From Dietzia aurantiaca (lineage in GTDB: Bacteria; Actinomycetota; Actinomycetes; Mycobacteriales; Mycobacteriaceae), in the NCBI RefSeq assembly GCF_021033825.1, contig NZ_JAIFXZ010000003.1, positions 62,001-126,000 on the forward strand: 64,000 nucleotides of DNA. Reading direction: 5' to 3'. Position 1 is the stretch's first letter. Each line of letters opens with the position of its first letter. The notes under the pieces are model-generated. The model searched no databases and had not been told where the DNA came from. It saw only the letters and a program-made list of their open reading frames with translations. Below are positions 994-47,579 of this stretch, one piece after another. A program made the translations under genes and the position numbers.

Positions 994-1040
994 CCCACCT
1001 GGGGCGCCCTGCTCACCCCGTTCAGGGCACCCCAGGTCAG
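994..1040. repeat. 47-bp palindromic repeat, copy 1 (spacer class A, reversed)
   Basis: Arms at 994-1011 and 1023-1040 around the 11-base spacer CTCACCCCGTT. The right arm is the consensus CAGGGCACCCCAGGTCAG. The left arm differs from perfect complementarity at three positions, and the same left-arm variant occurs in copy 3. The spacer is, bar one base, the reverse complement of the copy 5 spacer, so this copy is inverted relative to copies 4-6. It lies between two same-strand genes, just after the glycosylase stop, and no T tract follows. Confidence 0.9.
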
Positions 1041-1086
1041 GACCGGGGGCACCCCGCGCCGACGGGCCACGTCCTAGTCTCGTCCC

Positions 1087-1971
1087 ATGACCACGTCCGC
1101 CGAGGGGCCCACTCCCGAGCCGCGACCGGAACCGGAGCCAGAGCCGGAGAACCAGCCGGCACTGCCGGCCGAGCGCTGGGCCCGCGTACGTGCGGCGGCG
1201 ACCCGGGTGGCCACGGGTGCCTATGACGCCAACCGGCACCCGACGTCGGTCGAGATGGCCCGGCGGGTCCGGCGGGTGCTGCCCGGGGACTCGGGGTTCG
1301 GGGACCCGCTCTCGGCGGCGGGACGCGACGGCGCCGGGACCATCGCACGGATCGCCGGCCGACTGTTCGACGAGCGCCCCACGGCCACACGCGAGGTGAC
1401 GCTCGGAGGCCTGCAGCTGTGGCACGCGCTGCGGGAGCGGGCCGGCCGGGGCGTCGGCGAGCAGGAGGTGACCATCGTGTTCACCGACCTGGTGGGTTTC
1501 TCGAACTGGGCGATGCGCGCCGGCGACGAGGACGCCCTGCGACTGCTGCGGCGGGTCGCGACCGCCACCGAGCCCGAGGTCGTGGCGCACCGCGGGGCCG
1601 TGGTCAAGCGGCTGGGCGACGGGATGATGGCCGTGTTCCCGTCCCCGCAGCTCGCGCTCGACGCGGTCGCCGCGTGCCTGGACGGAGTCGCCCGGATCGA
1701 GGTCGGCGGCTGGCGGCCACGACTGCGGGTGGGGGTCCACACCGGGCATCCGCGGCGGATCGGCGACGACTACCTGGGCATGGACGTCAACATCGCCGCG
1801 CGCCTCGGCGAGAAGGCCGGAGCGGGAGAGATCCTCATCAGCGAGGCGACGCGCGCGGGCCTGGATCCGGCGCGGGTGGCGACCCGCCCCAAGCGGACGT
1901 TCCGGCTCGGCGGGGTCAAGGGAGTGCCCGACGACGTGGTGGTCCACGTGGCGACTCCCCACCGACACTGA
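1087..1971 (+). CDS. Class III adenylate/guanylate cyclase, soluble
   Basis: Makes a cyclic nucleotide (probably cAMP) in the cytoplasm. The catalytic homology domain fills roughly residues 124-290. Metal-binding aspartates are D134 in IVFTDLVGFS and D178 in KRLGDGMMAVF. VGVHTG follows, and DVNIAARL supplies the transition-state Asn and Arg near 235 and 239. K174 fits the adenine-specifying lysine. Residues 10-23 are a Pro/Glu repeat (PEPEPEPE), and residues 30-110 form a helical N-terminal region of unknown role. No membrane segment is present. A second, membrane-bound cyclase lies at 34755-36311. Confidence 0.9.
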   Translation: MTTSAEGPTPEPRPEPEPEPENQPALPAERWARVRAAATRVATGAYDANRHPTSVEMARRVRRVLPGDSGFGDPLSAAGRDGAGTIARIAGRLFDERPTATREVTLGGLQLWHALRERAGRGVGEQEVTIVFTDLVGFSNWAMRAGDEDALRLLRRVATATEPEVVAHRGAVVKRLGDGMMAVFPSPQLALDAVAACLDGVARIEVGGWRPRLRVGVHTGHPRRIGDDYLGMDVNIAARLGEKAGAGEILISEATRAGLDPARVATRPKRTFRLGGVKGVPDDVVVHVATPHRH

Positions 1972-1997
1972 CGCCCGCCGTGCGGTAGAACGGACTC

Positions 1998-2495
1998 ATG
2001 GCAACCACCGCATTCAAGGGCAACCCCGTCACCACGTCCGGCGAGCTTCCCGCCGTCGGCTCGACCGCGCCGGCCTTCGACCTGGTCGGCTCCGACCTGT
2101 CGGCCGTCACCTCCGAGTCGCTGGCCGGCAAGAAGGTCGTGCTCAACATCTTCCCGAGCGTCGACACCGGCGTGTGCGCGACCTCCGTCCGCACCTTCAA
2201 CGAGAAGGCCGCCGGCCTGGAGAACACCGCCGTGGTCTGCGTGTCCGCCGACCTGCCGTTCGCCGCCGCGCGCTTCTGCGCCGCCGAGGGCATCGAGAAC
2301 GTCTCCACGGGCTCGACCTTCCGCAGCACCTTCTCCACCGACTACGGCGTCAAGATGATCGACGGCCCGCTGGCCGGCCTCAACGCCCGCTCGGTCGTCG
2401 TACTCGACGCCGCCGGCAAGGTCCTCTACACCCAGCTCGTCGACGAGATCACCACCGAGCCGGACTACGACGCCGCGCTCGCCGCCCTGAACTGA
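1998..2495 (+). CDS. tpx: Thiol peroxidase, atypical 2-Cys peroxiredoxin
   Basis: Reduces hydrogen peroxide and organic peroxides using thioredoxin, in the cytoplasm. The 165-aa length is normal for Tpx. The peroxidatic cysteine is C60 in [15 protein letters not shown] and the resolving cysteine is C94 in [11 protein letters not shown], matching the Cys pair of the family. The Thr and Arg of the peroxiredoxin active site are also present. It starts 26 bp after the cyclase stop, but that may be only proximity. A strong hairpin follows the stop. Confidence 0.95.
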
Positions 2496-2506
2496 CATAC
2501 ACCACC

Positions 2507-2538
2507 GCGGCCCGCCCCCTGCACAGGGAGCGGGCCGC
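2507..2538. terminator. Hairpin between convergent tpx and flavin reductase genes
   Basis: Arms of 14 bp, GCGGCCCGCCCCCT and AGGGAGCGGGCCGC, with one mismatch and a 4-base loop. It sits between the two converging stop codons, so it can serve both strands. No T tract follows. Confidence 0.7.
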
Positions 2539-2540
2539 TG

Positions 2541-3101
2541 TCATGCTCGCGGCTCAGCGCTCATGCGGCGCGTCGCGCTCTCGAGCTGATCGAACACGGT
2601 CGCGATCTCCCGGGTGCGGCGCTCGTCCGGCGCCACGCCGTCGTCGTCGAACTCGGCGAACGTGCTCAGCGAAACCTGCTGGCGCACGCCGAACATGCGG
2701 AAATTGACGACGATCTGGCGCCAGTGCTCGACCGCGCGGACGCCGCCCTCGGCGCCGTAGGACACGAAGGCCACGGCCTTGTCGGCCCACTCGCCGCCGA
2801 GCGAGTCGAAGGCGTTCTTCAGGCCGCCCGGCACGCTGTGGTTGTACTCGGGGGTGACAAAGACGAAGCCGTCGTAGGAATCGATCGCGGTGCTCCAGCG
2901 GGTCACGCGCTCGTCGTCGTACTGCTTGTTCGCCGCGCCCGGCACGGTGGCCGAGGTGAGCAGCGGGACGTCGAAAGTCTTGAGGTCGACCAGCTCGTAG
3001 GTCACGCCCTCGCGCGACGCGGCCTGCTCGGCCACCCACCGCGCGACGGACTCGCCGGCGCGCCCCTCACGGATGCTGCCCAGGATGATGCCGATCTTCA
3101 C
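2541..3101 (-). CDS. NAD(P)H-dependent FMN reductase (flavodoxin-like fold)
   Basis: A flavoprotein quinone/FMN reductase of the NADPH_FMN_red family. It begins VKIGIILGSIREGRAGESVA, with the phosphate-binding GSIREGR loop after the first beta strand. FVTPEYNHSVPGGLKNAFD, at about residues 80-98, is the family signature. The GTG at 3101 is chosen because GAGGGGA lies about 9 nt upstream and the family starts at this strand. Length is 186 aa, as expected. It lies 35 bp downstream of the thioesterase gene on the same strand, so the two may be co-transcribed. Confidence 0.9.
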   Translation of the reverse strand: MKIGIILGSIREGRAGESVARWVAEQAASREGVTYELVDLKTFDVPLLTSATVPGAANKQYDDERVTRWSTAIDSYDGFVFVTPEYNHSVPGGLKNAFDSLGGEWADKAVAFVSYGAEGGVRAVEHWRQIVVNFRMFGVRQQVSLSTFAEFDDDGVAPDERRTREIATVFDQLESATRRMSAEPRA

Positions 3102-3136
3102 GTCTCGTCCCCTCTCGTCGGTCGGTCCGGCCGACC

Positions 3137-3949
3137 CTACCGCCGCCCGTAGACGGTGACCGATGCCACCGCGCACACGCGACCGCGCTCGTCGAGCGTG
3201 GCGGCCCGCGCGATGCCCCAGCTCCGGCCGTCGTGAACGACCTCCGCGCGCACCGTGACCGGCTCGGCCAGGGGGACCTGCCGGACGTAGTGGACCTCGA
3301 GCGACGACGAGCTGACCTCGCGCTCGTGCGGGAACACGGCCGCACCCGCGATCTCCGCGACCGCCGCGAACACTCCCCCGTGCAGATTGCCCAGCGGATT
3401 GGCCAGCGCGGGCTCCGGGGCGATCACGGCCTCCACCGCGCGGGTGCCGCCCGGGCCGTCATCGCGCTCGTCGAGAGTCAGGCACAGCACCTCCGGCAGC
3501 GTTCCCGGCGCGAGCAGGGAGGGCCACGGGGGCTCGTCGTCGAACTCGTCCGGGTCGACGCCGATCGAGAACTCCATGGACTTGACCAGTGCGGCGGCGA
3601 CCACCTCGTCGTCGTCGTCGACGATCTCACCGCGCGTGGTGAGGACACGGCCGTCCCCGCCCAGGTGGTCCGTGCGCACGCCCAGGCCGGTCGAGCCCTC
3701 GCGCGGCGGCGAGACGAGGTCGATGCGCAGCTCGGTGGTGACCGTCCACATCCCGCTCGGCCGGCGGCGGTGGTTCTCGGCGCCGAGCCCCGAGTCCACC
3801 AGGACCGCCAGTCCGCCCGTGGCGAAGCGTCCGCCGGGGCCGATGAACTGGTCACCGACCGGCTGGTGCCAGGTGATGGATCCGTCCCCGGCCTCGTCGA
3901 AGGTCACGCCCAGGCGCGGCTCGGGGCCTCTGTACTGCGATTCTCTCAC
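3137..3949 (-). CDS. Acyl-CoA thioesterase-like protein, two hotdog domains
   Basis: About 270 aa, built from two hotdog folds. The N-terminal half has GPGGRFATGGLAVLVDSGLG near residue 40. The C-terminal half has NPLGNLHGGVFAAVAEIAGA near residue 195, a PaaI-type active-site helix with its HGG motif. A run of acidic residues (VDDDDE) links the halves. The likely role is hydrolysis of a CoA thioester; the substrate is unknown. Divergent from the sensor kinase gene with only about 50 bp between starts. Confidence 0.75.
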   Translation of the reverse strand: MRESQYRGPEPRLGVTFDEAGDGSITWHQPVGDQFIGPGGRFATGGLAVLVDSGLGAENHRRRPSGMWTVTTELRIDLVSPPREGSTGLGVRTDHLGGDGRVLTTRGEIVDDDDEVVAAALVKSMEFSIGVDPDEFDDEPPWPSLLAPGTLPEVLCLTLDERDDGPGGTRAVEAVIAPEPALANPLGNLHGGVFAAVAEIAGAAVFPHEREVSSSSLEVHYVRQVPLAEPVTVRAEVVHDGRSWGIARAATLDERGRVCAVASVTVYGRR

Positions 3950-4001
3950 CCCGCGACGCTAACACGCGTTCTAGTTCCCGCCGGGCACGCACAATGGGAC
4001 C

Positions 4002-5429
4002 GTGCCCCTGAACCGCGACGTCCTCACGACCCCCCACCGGTGGCCGATCCGCGTCGCGACCACCGTGATCGCCACCGCGATCGTCATGCTCGTGCTGGCC
4101 GCCGCGGCCGGCGGCGCGTGGCTGATGCTGCGCTCGGCCGTGCACAGCACGATCGACACCCTGAACCGCAACCGCGCCGCCGAGGTGGCCGGGCAGCTCG
4201 CCACCCGCGGACCCCAGGCCTCGCTCGAGATCGTCGCCGAGCCACTCGCGGGCGTCGACATGGTGCGCATCATCACCCCCGACGAGACGATCCTCGCCGG
4301 TCAGGTCATGCACGGGCTGGAGAACGTCCCCGTGCTGACCTCGCCGGCGGCGGGGGAACTGGTCCGGCACCGGTTCCGGGCGCCGAACGGCGACGACGTG
4401 CGGGTCACCTCCGTCGGGGTGGACGTCCGCGGGACGACGTTCGTCGTGCAGGTCGGCGCCGGCACGGACCGCTACGACTCCCTGCTCGACACCGGCGCGA
4501 TCCTGTTCCTGTCGTTCGTACCGGTCGCGGGCCTGGCCACCGCGGTGTTCGTCCACTACGCGATGGGCCGCGTGCTGCGCCCGGTCGAGGCGATCCGCTC
4601 ACGGGTCGCCGAGATCTCCACGTCCGGCCACGGCGAGCGGGTCCCGGTGCCGGAGGCCGAGGACGAGATCGCCCGCCTCGCCGAGACCATGAACGCCATG
4701 CTCGCCCGCCTGGATTCCGCCCGCACCGCGCAGGTTGCGTTCATCGGCGACGCCTCCCACGAGCTGCGCAGCCCGCTGTCCACACTGTCGACGATGCTCG
4801 AGCTGTCCTCCACCTCGGGCACGCCGGTCGACGTGGAGACCGTCGACGAACTGCTGCTGCCCGAGGTCGCACGGATGCGCTCGATGGTCGAGGACCTGCT
4901 GCTGCTCGCCAAGAACGACGAGTACGGGATGCCGCTGCGCCGCGACGACGTGGATCTCGACGACATCGTGCTCTCCGAGGGCACGCGGGCGCGGGGCCTG
5001 GGCACGGCGGCCGGCGCCGGCCTGCAGGTGGCGGTGTCGGTGGAGCCGGCGCGCCTGTGCGGTGACCCCGACGCGCTGCAGCGCGTGGTGCGCAACCTGG
5101 TGGACAACGCGCGCCGGCACGCGCGCGAGCGGATGTCGCTGGGGCTCACCGTCGACCGGTCGGTCCCCGGGTCGCCACGCGCGGTGATCGTGGTCGACGA
5201 CGACGGCGACGGCGTCCCCGCGGACCAGCGACATTCGGTGTTCGATCGCTTCGCCCGCCTCGATGCCGACCGCGCGCGTGGCAAGGGCGGTTCGGGGCTG
5301 GGGCTGGCGATCGTCGCGGAGATCACGCGTTCCCACGGCGGCAGCGTGCGGGTCGAGGACGCGCCCGACGGAGGCGCCCGGTTCGTGGTGGAGCTGCCGG
5401 TCGAGGAGCTCGGGGAGTTCGGGGACTAA
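4002..5429 (+). CDS. Sensor histidine kinase, membrane-bound
   Basis: The first transmembrane helix is at about residues 18-44. An extracytoplasmic sensor region of about 115 aa follows, then the second helix at about 163-186 and a HAMP linker. The phosphoacceptor is H253 in DASHELRSPLSTL. The ATPase domain shows the N box RNLVDNARRHA and the glycine loops DDDGDGVP and GSGLGLAIV. GTG 4002 is the start that precedes the first helix. The sensed signal is unknown. Its stop overlaps the stop of the convergent response regulator gene by 4 bases, so kinase and likely partner cannot share one mRNA. Confidence 0.93.
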   Translation: MPLNRDVLTTPHRWPIRVATTVIATAIVMLVLAAAAGGAWLMLRSAVHSTIDTLNRNRAAEVAGQLATRGPQASLEIVAEPLAGVDMVRIITPDETILAGQVMHGLENVPVLTSPAAGELVRHRFRAPNGDDVRVTSVGVDVRGTTFVVQVGAGTDRYDSLLDTGAILFLSFVPVAGLATAVFVHYAMGRVLRPVEAIRSRVAEISTSGHGERVPVPEAEDEIARLAETMNAMLARLDSARTAQVAFIGDASHELRSPLSTLSTMLELSSTSGTPVDVETVDELLLPEVARMRSMVEDLLLLAKNDEYGMPLRRDDVDLDDIVLSEGTRARGLGTAAGAGLQVAVSVEPARLCGDPDALQRVVRNLVDNARRHARERMSLGLTVDRSVPGSPRAVIVVDDDGDGVPADQRHSVFDRFARLDADRARGKGGSGLGLAIVAEITRSHGGSVRVEDAPDGGARFVVELPVEELGEFGD

Positions 5430-6106
5430 CCCGCCGTGCTGTCCACGAGCCGGTAGCCCTGGCCGCGGACCGTCTCGATCGAACGCGCCTTGAACGGCGT
5501 GTCGATCTTGCGGCGCAGATAGCCGACGTACACCTCGACGATGTTGTCGTCGCCGTCGTAGGCCGAGTCCCACACGGACCGCATGATCTGCGCCTTGGAC
5601 ACCACCTGGTTGCGGTTGCGGATCAGGTACTCCAGGACGGCGTACTCGCGCGAGGTCACGGTGATCCGCTCCTCGCCGCGGCGGACCTCCCGCGCGGCCG
5701 GGTCCACCACGAGGTCACCGGCCTCGAACACCGCGGGGCGCTCGGGGGCGCCCCGGCGGACCAGCGCGCGCAGGCGCGCCTCCAGCACCACGAACGAGAA
5801 CGGCTTGACCAGGTAGTCGTCGGCTCCGAGGTCGAACGCGTCGGCCTCGTCGTACTCGCCGTCCTTGGCGGTGAGCACGAGCACGGGCGTCCAGATCTCG
5901 CGGCGGCGCATCTCGCGCACCACCTCATACCCGTTGCGGCGCGGCATCATGATGTCGAGCACCACGACGTCGTACTCCTCGTCTGCGGCCATCGCGAGAC
6001 CGGCCTCGCCGTCACCGGCGGTGTCGACGGCCCAGCCGCCGGCGACCAGTCCGCGGCGCAGGCTCTCCCGCAGCGCAGGCTCGTCGTCGACGACCAGGAC
6101 TCGCAT
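5426..6106 (-). CDS. Response regulator, OmpR/PhoB family
   Basis: 226 aa. The receiver domain carries the acidic pocket DDE at residues 7-9, phosphoacceptor D51 in VVVLDIMMPRRNG and K101 in LGADDYLVKPFS. The winged-helix DNA-binding domain covers about 125-222, with TSREYAVLEYLIRNRN and VYVGYLRRKID. Probable partner of the convergent kinase at 4002-5429. It starts 6 bp after the cysE-like gene stop on the same strand, so it is probably transcribed with that gene. Confidence 0.95.
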   Translation of the reverse strand: MRVLVVDDEPALRESLRRGLVAGGWAVDTAGDGEAGLAMAADEEYDVVVLDIMMPRRNGYEVVREMRRREIWTPVLVLTAKDGEYDEADAFDLGADDYLVKPFSFVVLEARLRALVRRGAPERPAVFEAGDLVVDPAAREVRRGEERITVTSREYAVLEYLIRNRNQVVSKAQIMRSVWDSAYDGDDNIVEVYVGYLRRKIDTPFKARSIETVRGQGYRLVDSTAG

Positions 6107-6112
6107 GCGCTC

Positions 6113-6952
6113 TCAGGCCTCGGAGTCGATCTTGTGGTCCATCTGCTCGGCCGGGACCACCGACTCGGCGTGACGGCGCACCACCTTGGCCGGCACCCCG
6201 GCGACCGTGGTGTGCGGCGGCACCTCGTGCAGAACCACCGAGCCGCCGGCCACCCGCGCGCAGTCGCCCACGCGGACGTTGCCCAGCACGATCGAGCCGG
6301 CGGACAACAGCACGCCGGAGCCGATCTTGGGGTGGCGGTCACCGTCCTCGTTGCCGGTACCGCCGAGGGTGACGCCCTGCAGGATGGACACGCCGTCGCC
6401 GATCACGCAGGTCTCGCCCACGACGATGCCGGTGGCGTGGTCAACCAGAATGCCCGAGCCCACGCTCGCGGCAGGATGGATGTCCATCGCGAACACCTCG
6501 GAGATGCGGCTCTGCAGGAACGAGGCCGCCATGACGCGTCCGGAGTGCCACATCTCGTGGGCGACCCGGTGCACCTGCAGGCCGAGGAACCCCTTGGCGA
6601 ACAGGTACGGCACCAGATAGTTGGGGTAGGCGGGGTTGCGCTCGTAGCTCACCACGAGGTCCGCCGCGACCGCCTCCAGGACGCGCGGGTTCTCCGCCAG
6701 GACGGCGCGGATCTCCTTCTCCAGCACGTGGCGGCCGATCTCCGGCGTCGCGATGCGGGAGGCGGCCAGCCGGGCCAGGGATTCACCCAGGTCATCGCAG
6801 CCGTCGATGAGGTCCAGGACGAGGCCGGCGATCAGCGGCTCGGTCCTGCTGGAGGCCGCGTCGAGCGACAACTGGTTCCAGACCGCACGCACGGAGGAGT
6901 CGGCCTCCGCCTGCGGCACGCACGGGTTCTCGATGCTCAGCTCGATGGTCAC
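6113..6952 (-). CDS. cysE: Serine O-acetyltransferase
   Basis: Acetylates L-serine with acetyl-CoA, the first step of cysteine synthesis. 279 aa, like the long enterobacterial form with its N-terminal helical domain. The left-handed beta helix starts near residue 155. The catalytic pair is D157 and H172 in DIHPAASVGSGILVDHATG, followed by hexapeptide repeats and LQGVTLGGTG. Start GTG 6952 is chosen because the extension above it has no family similarity. No cysK is adjacent; instead a response regulator gene follows after 6 bp, which is odd. Confidence 0.9.
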   Translation of the reverse strand: MTIELSIENPCVPQAEADSSVRAVWNQLSLDAASSRTEPLIAGLVLDLIDGCDDLGESLARLAASRIATPEIGRHVLEKEIRAVLAENPRVLEAVAADLVVSYERNPAYPNYLVPYLFAKGFLGLQVHRVAHEMWHSGRVMAASFLQSRISEVFAMDIHPAASVGSGILVDHATGIVVGETCVIGDGVSILQGVTLGGTGNEDGDRHPKIGSGVLLSAGSIVLGNVRVGDCARVAGGSVVLHEVPPHTTVAGVPAKVVRRHAESVVPAEQMDHKIDSEA

Positions 6953-7024
6953 CCCACCCAGGGTAGGCCCGCGCCGTCGCGGGGGTCGAGTCGCACCGCT
7001 CGGAGAACGCGGCATCATGGGGGC

Positions 7025-7348: not shown

Positions 7349-7395
7349 GTTGCCGAGCCGCGCGGCCCGGGTCATCCTCCGCCTGCAAATAGGCC

Positions 7396-7442
7396 CTGAC
7401 CTGGGGTGCCCTGCACGCATCGTGCAGGGCACCCCAGGTCAG
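7396..7442. repeat. 47-bp palindromic repeat, copy 2 (spacer class B), perfect stem
   Basis: Arms CTGACCTGGGGTGCCCTG (7396-7413) and CAGGGCACCCCAGGTCAG (7425-7442) are exact complements. The spacer CACGCATCGTG extends the stem by 4 bp, giving a 22-bp perfect stem with a CAT loop. It lies between two convergent genes, the best terminator position of any copy. No T run follows. Confidence 0.95.
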
Positions 7443-7475
7443 ATGCCTTCGTGGGTCGGTGTCGGTGGTGCCGGG

Positions 7476-8294: not shown

Positions 8295-8451
8295 GGAGGT
8301 ACTCCGGGTTCTCGGTCAGTGAGGGTGGCGCGTGTGGCGGATGGGGCTCGCGCCCCCGACGAGTGTGACACAAGATCATCGCGGATGATATCCCCGCGTT
8401 ACCACACGGGTGGGCGCCCGCAGGCCAGGCGCGGCTGGTTGACTGACGTTC

Positions 8452-10587: not shown

Positions 10588-10591
10588 CCCC

Positions 10592-23963: not shown

Positions 23964-24010
23964 CCCACCTGGGGCGCCCTGCGTGATGCCTGCAGGGCAC
24001 CCCAGGTCAG
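23964..24010. repeat. 47-bp palindromic repeat, copy 3 (spacer class B, reversed)
   Basis: Arms at 23964-23981 and 23993-24010 around spacer CGTGATGCCTG. The right arm is the consensus; the left arm has the same three changes as copy 1. The reversed spacer matches 8 of 11 bases of copy 2. It lies upstream of htpG and of the nuclease gene, not after a gene end. Confidence 0.9.
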
Positions 24011-24118: not shown

Positions 24119-24165
24119 CTGACCTGCGGTGCCCTGAACACGCCGAGCAGGGCACCGCAGGTCAG
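24119..24165. repeat. 47-bp palindromic repeat, copy 4 (spacer class A)
   Basis: Arms CTGACCTGCGGTGCCCTG and CAGGGCACCGCAGGTCAG are exact complements around spacer AACACGCCGAG. Both arms carry the same G-to-C/C-to-G swap at one stem pair compared with copies 1-3 and 6, which keeps the pairing. It lies 83 bp before the nuclease start. Confidence 0.95.
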
Positions 24166-24247
24166 GAGGACCGAGCGCGCGTGGCAACACCGACGTCGAC
24201 GACCACACCATCGCACCAATGTCGTACCTCGAACATACTGTCGAGCC

Positions 24248-25846
24248 ATGACCGCTACCCGGACCTCCTCCCGCACCGATTCCCCGTTCCCCGGCCCGCA
24301 GCCCGGCGGGCACTTCGAGGCCCCGCCCGGCTTCACCACCACGACCGGCCCGGCGGCCGATGTGCTGGTCCCCGAGGCCTACGCCAGGTGGGATCCAGGG
24401 CAGCGCCGCGGCTATCTCGCCAGGCGGCTGGTCAATGCAGCCGAGGGCGGCACGCTGCTCTACGCCTATGACTGCGTCCGTATGTCGCGCGAACGGGATG
24501 GTGTCCGCGACCCGTGGGAGACGGCGGCCACCATGATCGGGGCGTCCATGTCGATGTCGCGGCACGGGGCGACGCGGCTCATCTCCACCGCCGTGGAACT
24601 CATCGACCGGCTGCCGCGGACGGCGGCCCTGTTGCTGACCGGGTGGATCGGGCTGCTCGCGGCGCACACCATCGCCGAGGAGACCGCGTTCGTCGCGGAC
24701 GAGATGATGCCCGAGATCGACCGTCGCATCTGCGAGGGGCTCGCCCCCACCCGGCGGCGCATCCACCCACCCCGGCTCGGACCGCTGCGGAAGATGCTGA
24801 CCAAGACCATCAACAAATACGACCCGGTAGGCGCGGACGCCCGCGCTGAACAGGCACGACGTGGGGCGGACGTGGAAATGGTCCCGCTCGGGAACGACCG
24901 CGGGATGATCAGCGCCACGCTCAAAGCAGAGGACGCGATCGAGATCTTCCAGCGCCTGGACGGCCTCGTACGCAGCGCCGATCCTGAAGATCCGCGCACG
25001 GCCGGGCAGCTCCGCGCCGCCGGACTGCTCGCGATGAGCCGCGGCTGGACCTGCCTGCCCGATCCCGACGGCGAACATCCCGCCGACCCCGCCGCGCAGG
25101 ACGCCGCGAGACGAGTGGTGATACACGCGTACGACGACGGCAGCGCCGACAATCGCGGGCTCAGTCTCTACGGGTACGGACCGATAACCCGGCATACGGC
25201 GGATCAGCTCGATCGCAGCGCCCGGCGCAGGCTCGACAAGCTCGCGCACCTCGCCGACCCGCACAGCGACTCCGCGGGCCGGTACCGCCCCTCCGAGGCG
25301 CTGGCCCGGTTCTGTCGCGGAAGGGACGGGACCTGCGTGTTCCCCGGCTGCCAGACCCTGGCCGAGCATGCGGACCTGGACCACATCATCCCGTTCGACC
25401 ACGACGATCCGGCCCGGGGCGGGCGCACGACGAGTGACGATCTGGGCTGCCTGTGCCGGACCCATCACCGGCTCAAGACCGACGGCGTGTGGGCGTACTA
25501 CCGCGACGTCGACGGATCGTACGTGTGGCTCCACGGGCCCAACCATCCCGAACCCGACCGCGGCACCCGCGTGATCACGGGTCCGACCGGATCCTTGGCG
25601 CACCTCTCCGCCCCGCGGCATCCCGACGCCAGCCGACGCCAGATGGCCGCCGCCGAATCCGGGCGTACCGGCGGGCGGGGCGCGGATGAGGGGCGCAGGC
25701 ACCGACCGCACCTCGCGGAACGGCGTCGGGCGGACCGTCGGATCCGCCGCGAACGGGCTGAACAGCGTCGGGCGGACCGGTCGACGCCGGTGACGCCGGT
25801 GATGCCGGTGATGCCGGTGATGCCGGACGACGAGCCGCCATTCTGA
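24248..25846 (+). CDS. DUF222-HNH endonuclease (13E12-repeat type)
   Basis: 532 aa. DUF222 occupies about residues 45-340. The HNH domain follows, with zinc cysteines C363 and C368 in CVFPGC, catalytic DLDH at 377-380, then C401, C403 and HH at 406-407. Such genes are multicopy in mycobacteria (REP13E12) and relatives; a role in mobility or as nicking enzymes is suspected, not shown. The C-terminus is Arg-rich and ends in a TPV/MPV repeat. Two 47-bp palindromes lie within 290 bp upstream. Confidence 0.9.
   Translation: MTATRTSSRTDSPFPGPQPGGHFEAPPGFTTTTGPAADVLVPEAYARWDPGQRRGYLARRLVNAAEGGTLLYAYDCVRMSRERDGVRDPWETAATMIGASMSMSRHGATRLISTAVELIDRLPRTAALLLTGWIGLLAAHTIAEETAFVADEMMPEIDRRICEGLAPTRRRIHPPRLGPLRKMLTKTINKYDPVGADARAEQARRGADVEMVPLGNDRGMISATLKAEDAIEIFQRLDGLVRSADPEDPRTAGQLRAAGLLAMSRGWTCLPDPDGEHPADPAAQDAARRVVIHAYDDGSADNRGLSLYGYGPITRHTADQLDRSARRRLDKLAHLADPHSDSAGRYRPSEALARFCRGRDGTCVFPGCQTLAEHADLDHIIPFDHDDPARGGRTTSDDLGCLCRTHHRLKTDGVWAYYRDVDGSYVWLHGPNHPEPDRGTRVITGPTGSLAHLSAPRHPDASRRQMAAAESGRTGGRGADEGRRHRPHLAERRRADRRIRRERAEQRRADRSTPVTPVMPVMPVMPDDEPPF
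25784..25828 (+). repeat. 9-bp tandem repeat at the nuclease 3' end
   Basis: Five 9-bp units of the form ACGCCGGTG or ATGCCGGTG encode TPV-TPV-MPV-MPV-MPD near the C-terminus. Changes in number keep the reading frame. Confidence 0.85.
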
Positions 25847-27224: not shown

Positions 27225-27240
27225 CCTGACCCGGTCAGCG

Positions 27241-27290
27241 CACAGCGAAGGGCCCCACCGGAACGGTTTCCGGTGGGGCCCTTCGTTGTG
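27241..27290. terminator. Strong bidirectional terminator between SDR gene and gluD
   Basis: An 18-bp perfect stem (27246-27263 with 27268-27285) closed by a CGGT loop. It extends outward to 23 bp with a single G-T pair. It ends in TTGTG with no T tract. The genes on both sides converge here. Confidence 0.9.
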
Positions 27291-27336
27291 TGGGTCCCAT
27301 GGGTGTGTGGGTCCCGTGGCTGTGTGGCGTCCCGGG

Positions 27337-40159: not shown

Positions 40160-40250
40160 GACCTGAGCCTAAGCCTCCCCGGAGTCCACGGCTACTGCTA
40201 TGGCCTCTGGGTGGGGCCGTTCGTGACGACCCTCACGCGGGCGGGCCACT

Positions 40251-41261: not shown

Positions 41262-41330
41262 ACCCCGTGCAACCCGCCCCCTCGGCCGGCTATTCCGGGG
41301 AGCGGTGGTGCCGCACGGCACACTGGGGGC

Positions 41331-42191
41331 ATGCCTGATGCAACCGAGCAGAGCCCCGCCGATCCCGCCGCCACGGTCGCCCGTCTGGTGACGCTGCTGC
41401 GGGAGTCGAGTCCGCTGGTGCACTGCCTGACCAACTCGGTGGTCCGCGAGATCACGGCCGACGTGCTGCTCGCGGCGGGTGCGGCTCCGGCCATGGTCGA
41501 CCACCCGGCCGAGGCCGGCGACTTCGCGTCGATCGCCTCGGGCGTGCTCGTCAACGTCGGCAACCCGACGAGCGAGCAGATCAAGGGCATGCACGCGGCC
41601 ATCGCGTCGGCGCGCGAGCACTCCACGCCGTGGGTGCTGGACCCGGTCGCGGTGGGCGGCCTGACGCTGCGCACGGACCTGGCCACCGGCTGGCTCGACC
41701 ACTCCCCCGCGGCCATCCGGGCCAACGCCTCGGAGATCGTGGCGCTGGCCGGGGCGGGCGCGGGCGGCCGCGGCGTGGATTCCACCGCCACCGTCTCCAG
41801 CGCGCTGCTGCCGGCGCTCGAGTTGTCCGCCCGCACGGGCGGCACTGTCGCGATCTCGGGCGACAGGGATCTCGTCATCACCCAGACCGACGGGCCCACC
41901 CGGGCGACGTGGATCGACTCCGGCCATCCGCTGCTGCAGAAGGTCATCGGCACCGGCTGCGCGCTGGGCGCGTTGACGGCCGGCTATCTCGCGGTCGCGC
42001 GCTCGGCGGACATCTCCGATCACGACGCCGTGGTGGCCGCCCACGCCCACATCGGCGCGGCGGGCACGGCCGCGGGCACTGTGGCGATGGGGCCGGGCTC
42101 GTTCGCGATGGCGTGGCTGGACGCGTTGTACTCGCTGGAGCCGGAGCAGATCGCCGAGCTCGCGGTGCTGACGATCGCCGATGCCGAGTGA
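41331..42191 (+). CDS. thiM: Hydroxyethylthiazole kinase
   Basis: 286 aa. Phosphorylates 4-methyl-5-(2-hydroxyethyl)thiazole for salvage into thiamine. [24 protein letters not shown] is the N-terminal substrate region, split here as [12 protein letters not shown] and [29 protein letters not shown] and the catalytic-cysteine loop [15 protein letters not shown] are present. Only 69 bp lie upstream, too short for a full TPP riboswitch, and none is seen. Coupled to thiE by a GTGA overlap. Confidence 0.94.
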
Positions 42192-42895
42192 GCCCGCCGG
42201 CCGCGCGCCGCCGCGCCGCCGAGGCGACCGACTGGCGCCTGTACCTGGTCACCGATCCGCATCTGGGCGGCGGGCGGGACGCGGTGCCACAGATCGTCGC
42301 CGACGCGGTGCTGGGCGGGGTGGGCGTGGTCCAGGTGCGAGATAAGGAGTGTGACGACGACGAGTTCGCCGCCCACGCCGCCGCCATCGCCGCGGCGGCG
42401 GATCGCGCCGCGTCCGAGGTGGGTCGCCACGTTCCGGTGTTCGTCAACGATCGGCTCGAGGTGGCGCGCGAGCTGGGCCTGCACCTGCACATCGGTCAGC
42501 GGGACGAGCCGTTGGCGCGGGCCCGGGCGGCGCTGCCGGGCGAGCTGATGCTGGGCTTGTCGATCGAATCGGATGTGCAGTTGGTCGAGTCGCTCGCCGA
42601 TCCGTCGGTGGCCCCGGACGTGATCGGGGTGAGCCCGGTGTGGTCGACCGCCACCAAGACCGACACCGCCCCTGCGCTGGGCGTGCAGGGCGCGGACCGG
42701 ATCGCGCGGGTGGCCGCGGACGCCGGGGTGCGGTCGGTGGGCATCGGCGGGGTGGGGCCGGCCAACGTCGCAGATCTCGCGACCACCGCGCTGGACGGGG
42801 TGTGCGTGGTCTCGGCCATCATGGCCGCCCCGGACCCGCGCGCGGCCGCCGCGGATCTGCTCTCCCGCTGGGAGACCGGCCGCGGAACCCGCTGA
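42188..42895 (+). CDS. thiE: Thiamine-phosphate synthase
   Basis: 235 aa. Joins HMP-pyrophosphate and thiazole phosphate to thiamine phosphate. The TIM barrel shows [52 protein letters not shown] and [20 protein letters not shown]. Start GTG 42188 overlaps the thiM stop (GTGA), so the pair is one operon for thiazole salvage. Its stop codon lies inside copy 5 of the 47-bp palindrome. Confidence 0.93.
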
Positions 42896-42938
42896 CCTGC
42901 GGTGCCCTGAACGGGATGAGCAGGGCACCGCAGGTCAG
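42892..42938. repeat. 47-bp palindromic repeat, copy 5 (spacer class A)
   Basis: Arms CTGACCTGCGGTGCCCTG and CAGGGCACCGCAGGTCAG are exact complements around AACGGGATGAG. It has the same compensated stem pair as copy 4. The first bases overlap the thiE stop TGA (42893-42895), so it is the 3' end structure of the thiM-thiE mRNA. Confidence 0.95.
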
Positions 42939-43028
42939 GGGCCCTGCCCATCAGGCGGCCGGCCCAGGCGGTGAGCGGGACGCGCGAATCGCAGCCGCCC
43001 CACCGACGGCACCCGTAGGTTCGGCCCT

Positions 43029-43943
43029 ATGCAGACACCGTCGCCGACAGACCTTCCCGACGAGCCGTTGCCGATCCTGTTCGGCGCGAACATCGACCCG
43101 CTGTGGACCGAGGGCGCCGATCCGGTGGGCCGGGCGCTGGACGCCGAGAACGCCGGGTTCGACTTCGTCACCATTCAGGATCACCCGTACCAGCAGCGGT
43201 TCCACGACACGTGGACGCTGCTGACGTTCATCGCGGCCCGGACCGAGCGCCTCACCGTGGTGCCGACCGTGGCGTGCCTGCCACTGCGGCCGCCGGCGAT
43301 GCTGGCCAAATCCGCGTCGAGTCTCGACAAGCTCACCGGCGGGCGCGTGCAGCTGGGACTCGGTGCAGGCGCGTTCTGGACGGCGATCGCCGCGATGGGC
43401 GGGCCCGAGCGTTCGCCCAGGGAGGCGGCGGATGCGTTGACGGAGGCGGTCGACGTGATCCACGCGATGTGGTCCGGCCAACGCTCGGTGAAGGTACCGG
43501 GCGAGTACTACCGCCTCGACGGCAGCAAACCCGGCCCGCCACCGAGTGGGGATCTCGGGATCTGGACGGGCGCCTACGGGCCGCGGATGCTGCGGCTGAC
43601 CGGGGCGAAGGCCCGCGGCTGGATGCCCTCGCTGGGATTCCTGCCGGTGGACGAGCTTCCGGCGGTGGTGGCCCGCCTGGACGAGGCGGCACGGGAGGCC
43701 GGCCGGGATCCTTCGCGAATCCGGAAGGTGTACAACCTCAACGGCATGATCGGCGCCGAGTCCGGGACGCCGTTCGCGGGTTCGGCCGCGCAGTGGGCGG
43801 ATCAGATCGCCGGGTTGGTGTCCGAGCAGGGCATGAACGGCTTCGCCTATTGGCCCGACGACGACCACGACCGTCAACTCGCGATCTTCGCCGACGAGGT
43901 GGTGCCGCGGGTGCGGGAGTTGCTGCCGTCAGACCGGCCCTGA
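43029..43943 (+). CDS. LLM-class flavin-dependent oxidoreductase, probably F420-type
   Basis: 304 aa. PILFGANIDPLWTEGADPVG at the start, GFDFVTIQDHPYQQRFHDTW near residue 43 and GRVQLGLGAGAFWTAIAAMG near 108 are luciferase-like motifs. The IQDHPY segment is common among F420-dependent members of actinobacteria. Substrate unknown. It starts 91 bp after copy 5 of the palindrome. Not closely related to the other LLM protein at 40251-41261. Confidence 0.85.
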   Translation: MQTPSPTDLPDEPLPILFGANIDPLWTEGADPVGRALDAENAGFDFVTIQDHPYQQRFHDTWTLLTFIAARTERLTVVPTVACLPLRPPAMLAKSASSLDKLTGGRVQLGLGAGAFWTAIAAMGGPERSPREAADALTEAVDVIHAMWSGQRSVKVPGEYYRLDGSKPGPPPSGDLGIWTGAYGPRMLRLTGAKARGWMPSLGFLPVDELPAVVARLDEAAREAGRDPSRIRKVYNLNGMIGAESGTPFAGSAAQWADQIAGLVSEQGMNGFAYWPDDDHDRQLAIFADEVVPRVRELLPSDRP

Positions 43944-44037
43944 CCCGGATCCTCACTCCGTAAGTGGCCGTGGGCCTTCCTTGTTCCCTTTTCGGATTCG
44001 AGCGAGTCCCGACCCGGCTCAGCGTATTTTCGAGGTT

Positions 44038-44409
44038 ATGAGCCGTAAGCCACTCGAGATCACCCTGGTCGAGTTCCCCAGCACGTCCATGTCCGCCACC
44101 TCCGACTTCCTGGAGAAGGTGTGCGGGTGGACGCCCACCGTGTACGGGCCGTCGTACAGCAATCTGGTCGGCGGCGGGATCGACGTGGGGGTGCAGGGCG
44201 ACGCCCACGAACAGTCTCCGGCGCCGCTCATGGTGATCCGGGTGAGCGACCTCGACGAGGCCCGCGAGCAGGTCGAGGCCGCAGGCGGCGTGGTGACGTT
44301 CGGCCCGTTCGATTTTCCCGGCGGCCGGCGCTTTCACTTCCGCGAGCCCGGCGGGAACGAGATGGCGATGTGGGTGGCGGTGACGCGACCCGACCCGCCG
44401 ACCGAGTAG
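44038..44409 (+). CDS. VOC family protein (glyoxalase/bleomycin-resistance fold)
   Basis: 123 aa. The order is ITLVEFPSTSMSATSDFLEK (first beta-alpha unit), GGIDVGVQGD, LMVIRVSDLDEAREQVEAAG, then FPGGRRFHFREPGGNEMAMW, the second metal-ligand unit with its FxxPxGN-like end. Many such proteins are isomerases or lyases of small thiol adducts; the function here is unknown. Its end is 7 bp from the convergent AraC gene stop. Confidence 0.87.
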   Translation: MSRKPLEITLVEFPSTSMSATSDFLEKVCGWTPTVYGPSYSNLVGGGIDVGVQGDAHEQSPAPLMVIRVSDLDEAREQVEAAGGVVTFGPFDFPGGRRFHFREPGGNEMAMWVAVTRPDPPTE

Positions 44410-44416
44410 GGCCCGC

Positions 44417-45289
44417 TCACCGCTGTTCACGTTCGACCGGCAACCACAGTTCGCACGTGGCCGTGCTGAAGTCGTCGGCATGCTCGAGCACGGTGAGGAT
44501 CGACGGCCCGGGCCGCAGGCGCCACGGATTGGACGGGAACCACTCCGTGGCGGTGGCCGCCCACATCCGCTGCAGCGCGGCGGGGTGCTCGCCTGAGGAG
44601 CGGAATACCGCCCAGGTGCCCTCAGGCACGTCGATGGAGTCGAGGTCGGTGGGGATCGGGGTGTCGACGACGACGGCGACGCCGTGCAGATACGTGAGTT
44701 CGGCTCCTTCCGTGTAGTCGGGATCGACGTCGGCACTGACCTGCAGGATGCCGCCGGGTTCGGTGTCGGCGAGTTCTTTGAGTCGAGCGTGTTCTGCGGG
44801 CGGGATCGACTCGACGTGTGCGCGGATGTGCGGGTTCACGCCCTCGTGAATGAGTGGCACGCGGGCGGCATGGCCGATCAGGCGGAAGGCGTGGTGGTCG
44901 ATGATGCGGGCGTCCATGGGGATGCTCCCTTCAACGGTCAGGCGGAACCTGAGTACGGGTTGGCTGCGAAGGGGGCCGCCGTCCCGGCGGACCGCACCGT
45001 GGCTGACGCCGTGGACGGCGCGGAACGCCCGGCCGAACGCCTCTATCGAGCCGTAGCCGTAGCGGACCGCGATAGTGAGCAGATCCTCCTCGCCCATCAC
45101 GTCCGCCGTTGCGACGGTCATCCGGCGTCTGCGCAGATACTCGGAGACGGGCATCCCCGCCAGGGACGAGAACATGCGGCGCAGGTGATAGCCAGTGGTC
45201 CCGGACGCGGTGGCGATCGCCTCCACGTCGAGTTCGCCGGCCAGGTTGTCCTCGATCTCGTCGACGAGGCGGTTGAGGATCTCGATCAC
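44417..45289 (-). CDS. AraC family regulator with GyrI-like ligand domain
   Basis: 290 aa. The N-terminal double helix-turn-helix spans about residues 8-108 (TASGTTGYHLRRMFSSLAGM and VRYGYGSIEAFGRAFRAVHG). The GyrI/SOUL-like effector domain covers about 130-290, as in Rob/BmrR-type multidrug sensors. GTG 45289 follows GAAGGGAG at good spacing. It lies 67 bp after the ECF41 sigma gene on the same strand, so it may belong to that unit. Confidence 0.88.
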   Translation of the reverse strand: MIEILNRLVDEIEDNLAGELDVEAIATASGTTGYHLRRMFSSLAGMPVSEYLRRRRMTVATADVMGEEDLLTIAVRYGYGSIEAFGRAFRAVHGVSHGAVRRDGGPLRSQPVLRFRLTVEGSIPMDARIIDHHAFRLIGHAARVPLIHEGVNPHIRAHVESIPPAEHARLKELADTEPGGILQVSADVDPDYTEGAELTYLHGVAVVVDTPIPTDLDSIDVPEGTWAVFRSSGEHPAALQRMWAATATEWFPSNPWRLRPGPSILTVLEHADDFSTATCELWLPVEREQR

Positions 45290-45356
45290 GTGTGACTCCC
45301 TTCGCCGTCGACTCTGCTCGGAATCGGTCCGGGGCGCCCGACTTCTCCGGACCGGT

Positions 45357-46328
45357 TCAGTCGGCCGGACGGAACCCCTCCGGCAGCTCCACGCGGGTGA
45401 GCTTGTCCGGGTTGGCGTGGAACCAGACCCGCGTGACCCGGCCGTCCGTCGCACCGACCTGACCGATCCGCAGGACGCCCCGCGAGAACACGACCAGCGC
45501 CGTCTCCCCGTTGACGTCGACGGGCGCGATCATGCCGTCGGCGAGCTCGGCGGCCTTGACCAGGAAGTATGCGGTCTTGCGCGCGCCCACGATGTCGCGG
45601 CGGGCGGCATTGACCTTGCCGTCGCTGTCCGAGACCACACGGGCGTCAGCGGTGAGCGCGGCGATGGTCGCGGTCAGGTCTCCTGACATGACGGCATCGA
45701 CCAGCTGGCCGATGAGCTCGTCCGAGGCCCGCTCGGGCGGACGGAGGTCGGTGTCGAGCCGGTGCCGGGCCCGGCTCACCCACTGGCGGACAGTCGGCAC
45801 GGCGGTCTCGAGGATCTCCGCGATCTCGGAGTACGGCAGCTCGTAGGCCTCCCGCAGGACGAACGCCGCCCGCTCGGTGGGCACCAGTTGCTCGTAGGCC
45901 AACAGGACCGCGATCCGCAGATCGTCCCGGCGCTCGACCGCGTCCTCGGGCAGCAGCCCGGTGTCGACGGGCTCCGGCAGCCACGCGCCCGTGTAGGCCT
46001 CACGCTGACGACGGCGCAGCCGGTCCAGGCACAGTCGCGTGGTGACGGTGGTCAGCCAGGCCTCGGCGTTGTCCGGGGCCCCACCGCCCGGCATATCCCC
46101 GGAGCCCAGCGCGACCAGCCGGGCCAGGGCCTCGTCGGCGGCCTCCTCCGCGTCCGCCCACGTGCCGGTGAGGCGATACCCGATCCCGAGCAGCCGGCCC
46201 CGCACGCGGTCGAACGCGGCTTGGTCGGGCAGCGCGGTCAGCTCGGGCGCACGGGATCGATGTCGCGCTCCTCGACGCCCTTCAGCGAGCGCGGGTCCAG
46301 CCTCGTGGCCACGGCGATCCGATTCCAT
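45357..46328 (-). CDS. ECF41-type RNA polymerase sigma factor (SigJ-like)
   Basis: Sigma region 2 begins at VRGRLLGIGYRLTGTWADAE, and region 4 includes LPYSEIAEILETAVPTVRQW. The SnoaL-like C-terminal extension carries both ECF41 marks: a DGGGK-type motif (here DSDGK) and NPDKL near the end, which tune activity without a separate anti-sigma factor. ATG 46328 gives a 91-bp overlap with the upstream AhpD-like gene and an N-terminal tail of about 38 residues absent from relatives. GTG 46205, or a CTG overlapping the upstream stop, may be the true start. Confidence 0.9.
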   Translation of the reverse strand: MESDRRGHEAGPALAEGRRGARHRSRAPELTALPDQAAFDRVRGRLLGIGYRLTGTWADAEEAADEALARLVALGSGDMPGGGAPDNAEAWLTTVTTRLCLDRLRRRQREAYTGAWLPEPVDTGLLPEDAVERRDDLRIAVLLAYEQLVPTERAAFVLREAYELPYSEIAEILETAVPTVRQWVSRARHRLDTDLRPPERASDELIGQLVDAVMSGDLTATIAALTADARVVSDSDGKVNAARRDIVGARKTAYFLVKAAELADGMIAPVDVNGETALVVFSRGVLRIGQVGATDGRVTRVWFHANPDKLTRVELPEGFRPAD

Positions 46329-46747
46329 GCGTTGATGGTGACGATCTCCATGAGCAGCTGTCCAGCCCCGGATTCCCCGCGGTGCCGGACGACCTCGGCC
46401 CAGAGCTCGTCCGGGACGGATTCCTCGCCGTCGATGTAGGTGACGGCGTCGGCGAACCGTGCCACCACCCGCTGGTCCTCGGCCAGGTCGTCCGCGCGGG
46501 AGCTCGTGAGTTCGGCCGCGAGGATCCGCGCGTCGTCCCAGCCGTCCTTGCGGGCGTCGCGGCGGTGCATGGCCGTGCAGTAGCGGCAGCCATTGACCGC
46601 CGAGACCCGGAGCCTGATGAGGTGACTGTCCGCCCGCGAGACGCGGGCCCTCGTGTAGGCCTCCATCGCCACCATGGGCGCCATCGCACCCGCGCTGATC
46701 TTCTTGCGCTTCATCCCGCCTTGCGGGCTGCTCTCGTGTGTACTCAT
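46238..46747 (-). CDS. Carboxymuconolactone decarboxylase/AhpD-like protein, ECF41 partner
   Basis: Up to 169 aa. The AhpD core is NGCRYCTAMHRRDARKDG, with C54, C57 and H61 forming the redox CxxC-xxx-H site. CMD proteins are the usual genomic partners and promoter targets of ECF41 sigma factors. A matching ECF41 promoter lies directly upstream. With that promoter, transcription would begin about 3 nt before ATG 46747, giving leaderless translation, or ATG 46714 (after AAGGCGGG) is used, which also fits family length. Confidence 0.88.
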   Translation of the reverse strand: MSTHESSPQGGMKRKKISAGAMAPMVAMEAYTRARVSRADSHLIRLRVSAVNGCRYCTAMHRRDARKDGWDDARILAAELTSSRADDLAEDQRVVARFADAVTYIDGEESVPDELWAEVVRHRGESGAGQLLMEIVTINAWNRIAVATRLDPRSLKGVEERDIDPVRPS

Positions 46748-46755
46748 ATCCCTTC

Positions 46756-46782
46756 GACGCACGAGCGCCCCGAAACGTGACA
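46756..46782 (-). promoter_or_regulatory. ECF41-type promoter of the AhpD-like/sigma operon
   Basis: On the reverse strand, TGTCACG (46782-46776) is followed by 16 bases and CGTC (46759-46756). The reported ECF41 consensus is TGTCACA at -35 and CGTC at -10 with about this spacing. The gene for the matching sigma factor lies in the operon it would drive. Confidence 0.75.
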
Positions 46783-46855
46783 GTCGCGCACCGGGGTGAG
46801 GGCTGTGGGCGCGGCTACGCTGGGAATCCACCGCCCCGACCGAGGAGCTCCAGTC

Positions 46856-47515
46856 ATGACCGAGCCCAGCAGCCCCGACCCCACCGGCCCGGAGCCGGTT
46901 CCCGCACCCGACCTGCTGCTCTCCGACGCCGAGCGCCTGCACGCGTTGACGGCGCTCGGCGACCACTATGCGGCGGGCCGCCTGGACGACTCGGAGTTCC
47001 ACGCCCGGTCGGGCGACGTGGCCGCGGCCCGCACTCTGCGCCAGCTCCGCGGGACATTCAGCGATCTGCCCGGCGGGATGCCCCTGACCTCGGTCGACGG
47101 TATGATTGTCCGGTCGGCCACGGTCGGCGATCAGGTGGGCGCGGGCGGGGTGGTGGCGTCGTCGTCGGGCGCTTCTTCCACCCAGGTGCCGGCGCACCGG
47201 GACGTCGACGCCGAGCTGGCGGAGCTGCGTAAGCGCGGCAAGACCATCGAGGCGCTGGACGGCGTCGTGGTGGGCGTGACGCTGGTGGCATTCCTCATCC
47301 TGCAGTTCGTGGTGGGCTGGAACTTCGCGTGGATCGTGTGGCCGTCGCTGGCGCTGACGCTCGGCATCCCGCGCCTGATCCTGCGCTACAACGACGACGA
47401 CGAAGCCACCTACGAGAAGCTCAAGAAGGCCGACCAGAAGGCGCGCGAGGACCGGCTGCGCGCGGCGAACGACCGGATCCGCGAGCTGGGCGACGGGCGC
47501 GAGGGCCGGGGCTGA
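46856..47515 (+). CDS. DUF1707 membrane protein
   Basis: 219 aa. The DUF1707 domain covers about residues 20-70 (LLLSDAERLHALTALGDHYA then AGRLDDSEFHAR, ending DLPGG). A Gly/Ser linker precedes two membrane helices at about 140-160 and 163-180 (VVVGVTLVAFLILQFVVGWN). The charged C-terminal tail (KLKKADQKAREDRLRAANDR) is likely a coiled coil in the cytoplasm. Function unknown. The ribosome site GAGGAG is 8 nt before ATG 46856. Copy 6 of the palindrome follows its stop. Confidence 0.85.
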   Translation: MTEPSSPDPTGPEPVPAPDLLLSDAERLHALTALGDHYAAGRLDDSEFHARSGDVAAARTLRQLRGTFSDLPGGMPLTSVDGMIVRSATVGDQVGAGGVVASSSGASSTQVPAHRDVDAELAELRKRGKTIEALDGVVVGVTLVAFLILQFVVGWNFAWIVWPSLALTLGIPRLILRYNDDDEATYEKLKKADQKAREDRLRAANDRIRELGDGREGRG

Positions 47516-47532
47516 CATCCTCGTTCAGGCCT

Positions 47533-47579
47533 CTGACCTGGGGTGCCCTGGAGGGGGCGAGCAGGGCACCCCAAGTCAG
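47533..47579. repeat. 47-bp palindromic repeat, copy 6 (spacer class A)
   Basis: Left arm CTGACCTGGGGTGCCCTG, right arm CAGGGCACCCCAAGTCAG, spacer GAGGGGGCGAG. One mismatch lies in the outer stem. It fills the gap between the convergent DUF1707 and MFS genes, a terminator-like position. Confidence 0.9.

Follow-up and report, generated by a model that had tools for sequence, protein, structure and literature searches.

The 64,000-nucleotide stretch analyzed here, called the window throughout, is part of the 3.77-Mb genome of Dietzia aurantiaca (genome G000; contig C23, 62001-126000) and carries six copies of a 47-bp palindrome, two of them upstream of a gene whose product combines a DUF222 domain with an HNH motif. 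In the genus Dietzia this palindrome is associated with a single clade of DUF222-HNH genes, keeps a fixed geometry, displays a half-site pattern and clusters around the gene. We read it as a dispersed site, similar to the repetitive extragenic palindromic (REP) sequences, that is recognized by the protein of a Dietzia-specific DUF222-HNH clade of the 13E12 type, and we assign this reading a probability of about 0.6. The palindrome is probably both the DNA target of the DUF222-HNH protein and a small mobile repeat.

All six window copies are composed of an 18-bp arm, an 11-bp spacer and a second 18-bp arm, with CTGACCTGSGGTGCCCTG as the arm consensus. An earlier reading made from the letters of the window (hereafter, the sequence-only reading) had reported six palindromes of this form, and each was recovered exactly as described. 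The arms are perfect in copies 2, 4 and 5 (numbered as in Table 1), copy 6 has a single arm-arm mismatch, and copies 1 and 3 have three mismatches each and a common variant left arm, CCCACCTGGGGCGCCCTG. This shared variant, as well as the C/G swap of copies 4 and 5 with its matched change in the opposite arm (arm position 9), had already been noticed in the sequence-only reading. Its division of the spacers into two oriented classes did not survive the larger sample, in which 88 distinct spacers obey one degenerate pattern.

The copies exceed what chance would give: in G000, the arm pattern with up to two mismatches had 24 matches versus none for a reversed control pattern; pattern search and covariance model together locate 13 copies, ten on C23, two on C1 and one on C9. 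With a covariance model built from 53 copies (E <= 1e-9), 18 of the 23 Dietzia genomes proved to have the palindrome, and the six copies of the window belong to a genus-wide family. An initial scan (E <= 0.1) of 61 genomes had given matches in 24; six of these lie outside the genus, five with single weak matches and one (G053) with a hairpin family that is longer and distinct. Named genomes, when searched with the pattern, yielded 22 stretches, 19 from Dietzia and the others from an Acidobacteria record, a Nocardiopsis metagenome-assembled genome (MAG) and 'Bacterium HR26'. The Acidobacteria and 'Bacterium HR26' stretches hold different palindromes, and the Nocardiopsis contig has true copies. 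This 3-kb contig (L086) comes from a chicken-gut MAG, and its two copies closely resemble those of a chicken-gut Dietzia MAG; it is probably a binning error, or else a case of transfer. Carriage by plasmids or phages was rejected: one palindrome copy used as query had no match in plasmids, another had none in phages, and the DUF222 protein of the window had none in plasmids at E 1e-30.

From the fetched stretches, 112 places were gathered, yielding 108 distinct copies with an 11-bp spacer; two of the remaining four overlap such copies, one has a broken right arm and one is chance-like. Copies that matched each other fully, 10-bp flanks included, entered the count a single time, which drops copies shared by close species, e.g., those of G019. 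The largest number gathered from one genome, 27 in G009, may mix strains, since this assembly has 3% contamination.

The sequence-only reading described the palindromes correctly and missed the main feature beside them, the DUF222-HNH gene that is separated by copies 3 and 4 from the HSP90 gene htpG. When the proteins encoded next to the gathered copies were clustered, 15 DUF222 proteins, including a 47-aa fragment, came together, all with their starts towards the copies, and the next cluster had seven members. A profile built from 13 of these 15, applied to the DUF222 proteins called in the fetched stretches, scored 14 of them at 651-991, all with upstream copies; the 36 other DUF222 proteins, with scores up to 139, had no copy within 700 bp upstream or 600 bp downstream, sequence permitting. 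Nor did these 36 genes have recurrent palindromes of their own, except for an inverted repeat common to two related genes (L258 and L249). Because the profile had been built from associated proteins, a fresh search of the 23 Dietzia genomes was performed, and at E <= 1e-60 it identified 18 clade genes in 14 genomes. Seventeen of these have one to seven upstream copies, the nearest lying 55-646 bp from the called start, and the 18th is cut by a contig edge. Four of the 18, a pair from G019 and single genes from G014 and G018, had not come up next to a copy before. One of these four is the gene cut by the contig edge; the other three could be tested and have copies, those of G018 being degenerate (arm scores 18 and 13, 17 and 14). 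DUF222 genes occur in all 23 Dietzia genomes, with 3 to 15 matches each and 166 in total; the 60 stretches (223 kb) examined around non-clade members of this set contain no copy.

In a maximum-likelihood tree of 53 rows, all associated genes fall into one clade with support of 95/97; some long-branch joins in this tree may be false, and its midpoint root serves for drawing only. Outside Dietzia, the same profile was run on 396 genomes from the order (86 genera in all) and returned no such gene at E <= 1e-70. Within the clade, the HNH residues are conserved, with PF02720 scoring above its cut-off and PF01844 below. A search for solved structural relatives gave none (best E 0.53), and comparison with known defense families gave nothing convincing. 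The sequence TCGAACATACTGTCGA in front of the start codon resembles the actinobacterial SOS-box consensus. A box of this kind is visible before the start in seven of 14 clade rows, the called start lying further inside the gene in the other seven, and similar boxes precede several other DUF222 genes, so that the box is not specific to the clade; SOS induction of the clade gene is predicted on this basis.

Co-occurrence of gene and element points in the same direction: among the 23 genomes, 14 have both, four have the element only, five have neither and none has the gene only (Fisher p 0.004, without correction for relatedness). Copies also gather around the gene. In the three contiguous genomes with the gene (G017, G005 and G002), a distance of at most 50 kb separates 11 of the 16 non-promoter copies from it, against 0.67 expected, and 9 of 14, against 0.59 expected, when two matches of E 0.0016 and 0.0027 are left out. 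In G000, nine of ten non-promoter copies are located on the two gene-bearing contigs, which make up 23% of the assembly (p 1.5e-5). The gene adjoins htpG in G000, G009 and G006 and an XRE-type gene (named by eye) in G017, G011, G007, G020, G003, G005 and G002, and the region of G017 orthologous to the window (1896-1940 kb) has no copy listed at E <= 0.5. The copy cluster follows the gene, not the chromosome position, and the loci differ between lineages. A chromosome-domain signal of the matS kind was accordingly rejected, with clusters found at different orthologous regions in different species. A site of the XRE-type regulator was rejected as well, as this neighbor is present only at seven orthologous-looking loci.

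Next to be considered is what is conserved within the 47 bp. The matched C/G swap had been taken in the sequence-only reading as direct evidence for a conserved fold. As RNA, the six window copies form hairpins of -29.8 to -49.4 kcal/mol (z -5.1 to -11.0), and they fold strongly, as any such palindrome must; it is covariation that is informative here. In a test on 53 copies, 25 of 500 shuffles equaled or exceeded the covariation score of the whole structure. The set for half-site analysis was obtained from the 108 copies by removing one copy with weak arms (107 left), 19 with repeated spacers (88) and one at a contig end (87). At 17 of the 18 arm positions, the two arms of these 87 distinct-spacer copies match at a rate not above chance (p >= 0.097). 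The covariation argument is thus reduced to position 9, where 17 of 53 copies are mismatched, and an RNA fold kept by covariation was rejected as the main driver. Conservation, in turn, enters the nominal spacer, with A at its position 2 in 116 and G at its position 4 in 115 of 174 half-sites, and these positions are paired no more than by chance; the outer flanks of the same half-sites exhibit a weak preference for C at the second-last outer base. Given this unpaired conservation and the independence of the arms, each arm looks like a half-site of a DNA-binding protein, read alike from both ends at a fixed distance.

The position of the copies relative to genes, as called by our own codon-score script, brings a further explanation into play. 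No copy out of 108 lies inside a called gene. Within the window, two copies are in convergent gaps, two in codirectional gaps and two form a pair in one divergent gap, with copy 5 overlapping a stop codon. For the 102 copies with both neighbors called (six at contig edges were left out), the numbers are 41 convergent, 46 codirectional and 15 divergent; the background, made up of 316 gaps of 50 bp or longer from these stretches with copy-bearing gaps included, comprises 62 convergent, 157 codirectional and 97 divergent. Convergent gaps are enriched (p 6e-5) and divergent gaps depleted (p 0.001), in a count where orthologous copies enter more than once. Copies lie at a median distance of 47 bp from gene 3' ends and 172 bp from 5' ends, and 12 of 128 3'-end distances equal the exact offset at which the element's own CTGA supplies the stop codon.

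Such placement would suit a family of bidirectional terminators dispersed between genes as preformed hairpins, with a merely coincidental link to the DUF222-HNH gene, and the high stability of the hairpins agrees with it. So does part of what is seen in orthologous gaps. The copy at 7396 is kept in four relatives and that at 47533 in two (Table 1). At the first locus, G017 (L102) has an unrelated hairpin with 27-bp exact arms and G013 an inverted repeat with 12-bp arms; in G011, G008, G015 and G007 the gap is similar, and no exact inverted repeat measured there exceeds the 8 bp of G011; in other genomes the gap is short or diverged, or a single flank was found. At the second locus, G008 and G011 (L128 and L129) have a common other hairpin, 14 bp exact in G008. 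Copy-bearing slots thus hold unrelated inverted repeats in other species, as if the slot preferred a hairpin. Against the terminator explanation stand the 15 divergent copies, the missing co-variation of the arms, the mere 8 bp of the G011 replacement, and a T-rich tail, on either side, in only 10 of 108 copies; moreover, a terminator needs neither a fixed 11-bp spacer nor an association with a gene clade. In stability, GC-richness and occurrence in convergent gaps, the copies are like bidirectional intrinsic terminators, from which they differ in mostly lacking a T-tract, in the fixed spacer, in forming one sequence family and in the gene-clade association. We therefore consider the terminator explanation improbable. 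The sequence-only reading had proposed a dispersed element reused as a terminator, not a plain terminator. The dispersed element is supported by a genus-wide family with fixed spacer length, local clusters and many unrelated loci; the terminator role is backed by hairpin stability and convergent enrichment and weakened by the scarcity of T-rich tails, and copies in convergent gaps may plausibly stop transcription as a secondary effect.

Past movement of the repeat is suggested by its dispersal, by the variant arm shared by copies 1 and 3 and by the gene-linked clusters. Clean empty sites, which the sequence-only reading had named as a check on mobility, were sought at the 7396 and 47533 loci and at six sites of G011. 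Compared with five relatives, three of these six sites have both flanks in a relative, with gaps of 0.1 to 4.2 kb; at one locus (L177) both copies are kept in G017. Where orthologous gaps lack the element, they have diverged or contain other sequence, in a comparison made between species. Exchange of cassettes between copies is not claimed, as similarity usually ends at least 34 bp from the element and not at its edge.

Gene and copies could also be linked merely by residing in variable, recombining regions, the palindromes multiplying through ordinary recombination or replication errors. Near-identical local arrays in G009 (L173, L165 and L171) speak for this, e.g., seven copies at L173:2936-3761 and four near-identical copies at L165:855-1335, spaced at intervals of about 105-190 bp with G/C-rich simple sequence between the near-identical copies. 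Copy-bearing gaps vary among relatives, and the REP13E12 regions of Mycobacterium tuberculosis are enriched for gene conversion (PMC13061034). However, the 36 other DUF222 proteins have neither copies nearby nor a recurrent palindrome of their own, and dispersed copies keep the exact geometry while differing in spacers and flanks, which makes this explanation very unlikely. At L158:3106-4140, L183:39-1076, L193:3010-4127 and L196:3049-4197, two copies lie roughly 1 kb from each other and enclose one or two genes; paired copies whose gap contents differ among relatives may hint at recombination between copies.

We return to recognition of the palindrome by the clade protein. Most likely, a protein that has conserved HNH residues and is encoded behind a palindrome array throughout its clade binds that palindrome. 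Two or more subunits would bind the inverted half-sites, either as double-stranded DNA or as an extruded hairpin, and the HNH domain might then nick or cut at the palindrome, perhaps after DNA damage, since an SOS-like box precedes the gene. Copying of the 47-bp unit near the gene could result from this activity and lead to local spread; copies would persist in intergenic positions, many of them next to gene 3' ends, and could incidentally stop transcription through the hairpin or translation through the element's own TGA. A more specific proposal, which we hold tentatively and at somewhat less than even odds, is a selfish repeat system of a class not described before, in which an SOS-inducible DUF222-HNH nuclease would recognize the 47-bp double half-site, have an array of it as its promoter region and give rise to new copies mostly within about 100 kb of its gene.

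Binding without mobilization is the competing possibility: the palindrome might be a regulatory or chromosome-organizing site of the DUF222-HNH protein, used for autoregulation or parS-like loading. Copies in all 17 testable clade promoter regions, the half-site geometry and the clustering near the gene are what such a site would display. By contrast, copies away from the gene concentrate at 3' ends and in convergent gaps, four genomes keep copies without the gene, and the stop codons given to neighbors together with the near-identical local arrays suggest an expanding repeat; we judge a purely regulatory site unlikely.

Several observations weigh against a mobile repeat recognized by the clade protein. 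Binding, cutting and movement are all steps that we infer from sequence. G001, G008, G010 and G015 have the element without an intact gene; the G001 assembly is 88% complete, so the gene may be missing from it, and G015 has the 47-aa DUF222 fragment beside one copy (L207). Five of the 16 copies in the contiguous genomes lie far from the gene (106 kb, 112 kb and three at 470-629 kb), the clusters of G002 and G005 are orthologous, and the tests ignore relatedness, with orthologous copies and genes not being independent. No clean empty site or element-sized indel was seen at 7396, at 47533 or at the six G011 sites, and dispersed copies mostly have different spacers, so that no simple cut-and-paste of the whole unit is evident. 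Beside the gene, copies are confined to its upstream side, whereas loci of REP-associated tyrosine transposases (RAYTs) have them on both sides; none lies within 600 bp downstream of the 14 clade genes, as far as the sequence reached. Finally, a pure half-site model does not predict the link between the arms at position 9, which agree in 58 of 87 copies versus 48% (p 4.6e-4; Fisher p 0.012 on 53 copies). A matched change is also seen at arm position 7 in G009 and G006. The position 9 link and this matched change may reflect arm-to-arm correction, replacement by another copy, or a role of the hairpin.

Comparison with known systems delimits what kind of element this could be. REP sequences are extragenic, occupy mostly convergent or unidirectional gaps near 3' ends and have termini that give neighbors stop codons (PMC3733652). 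Their copy number is usually >100 per genome, and RAYT loci were found as an enzyme gene flanked by palindromic repeats, with more repeats between neighboring genes (PMC2817692). The Dietzia palindrome is REP-like in being short, with 18-bp arms, in its absence from called genes, in its convergent or codirectional placement (87 of 102) near 3' ends, and in supplying stop codons; as in RAYT systems, copies stand beside the gene of a DNA-processing enzyme and others are scattered between neighboring genes. Unlike REP sequences, it reaches tens of copies at most (13 in G000, 27 in G009) and is strongly clustered locally, and its 18-bp arms with a fixed 11-bp spacer differ from both REP and REPIN layouts. 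The enzyme is DUF222-HNH and not a Y1/HUH tyrosine transposase (Pfam01797, for which no genome-wide search was made), the outer flanks of the 174 half-sites have no GT(A/G)G head, and the copies beside the gene are upstream only, not inverted on both sides. Because enzyme class, head, one-sided placement, low copy number and local clustering all differ, the palindrome and its gene are not a member of the RAYT-REP system and at most work like one.

On the side of the protein, the HNH-domain genes of the 13E12 type in M. tuberculosis are reported to belong to a LexA-controlled module (PMC4181829), REP13E12 regions are described as frequently recombined and without defined function (PMC13061034), and REP13E12/HNH/DUF222 sequences are grouped among repetitive elements (PMC10589994). 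The Dietzia clade is like them in combining DUF222 with an HNH motif, and a putative LexA-type box is visible here. It differs from M. tuberculosis 13E12 in its palindrome partner, none being reported there in the available portions of the literature searched, and the clade was not found in the 396 other genomes of the order. In that literature, with subscription journals mostly outside the search, no report of the palindrome or of a palindrome partner of DUF222 was found. The association ties a clade to one exact DNA sequence and so offers a concrete, testable substrate for DUF222-HNH function. If the selfish repeat system proposed above is real, the 13E12/DUF222 superfamily would gain its first known DNA target, and REP-like repeats would have a way of arising without a RAYT. 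REP-like palindromes could then be tied to an HNH protein in place of a RAYT and remain close to the gene, a point of relevance to the origin and spread of dispersed repeats.

Partition sites of the parS type cluster near par genes. The Dietzia palindromes are similar in being gathered around the gene of their presumed binding protein and differ in that no Par protein takes part in the association, the protein has an HNH nuclease motif, and the position of the cluster changes between species.

Table 1. Palindrome copies and associated features in the window (positions counted from its first letter).
Feature	Position	Strand	Remarks
Palindrome copy 1	994..1040	-	Left arm with 3 differences; covariance-model match on the - strand
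Palindrome copy 2	7396..7442	+	Perfect arms; convergent gap; orthologous copies in G010, G001, G009, G006
Palindrome copy 3	23964..24010	-	Upstream of the DUF222-HNH gene
Palindrome copy 4	24119..24165	+	Upstream of the DUF222-HNH gene
Palindrome copy 5	42892..42938	+	Provides the upstream gene with its stop codon (TGA)
Palindrome copy 6	47533..47579	+	Convergent gap; orthologous copies in G009, G006
SOS/LexA-box-like sequence TCGAACATACTGTCGA	24229..24244	+	Directly before the start codon; putative function
DUF222-HNH protein gene, 532 aa	24248..25846	+	PF02720 E 1.3e-19; in the element-associated clade
HNH motif region, ~residues 363-411	25334..25480	+	Conserved residues; PF01844 E 0.0093, below cut-off

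Known RNA families were absent from the window at gathering score. A separate strong hairpin at 27239-27292, with 23-25-bp arms, a 4-nt loop and A/T-rich outer ends, has two look-alikes in stretches of G004 and G018 and resembles an ordinary terminator. G053, the genome from another family of the same order, has a dispersed palindrome of its own, ACCTGCGGTGCCTTTCACCCCGCTA followed by a short loop and the mirror sequence, seen at five places (L152-L156, near 5541, 4848, 4342, 3628 and 4462). Nine flanking proteins tested there, including RpoC, MraZ, ribosomal S10 and transporters, comprised no DUF222 protein. Four of these palindromes stand beside TTATCCACAG, which resembles a DnaA box, and the fifth beside TTTTCCACAG.

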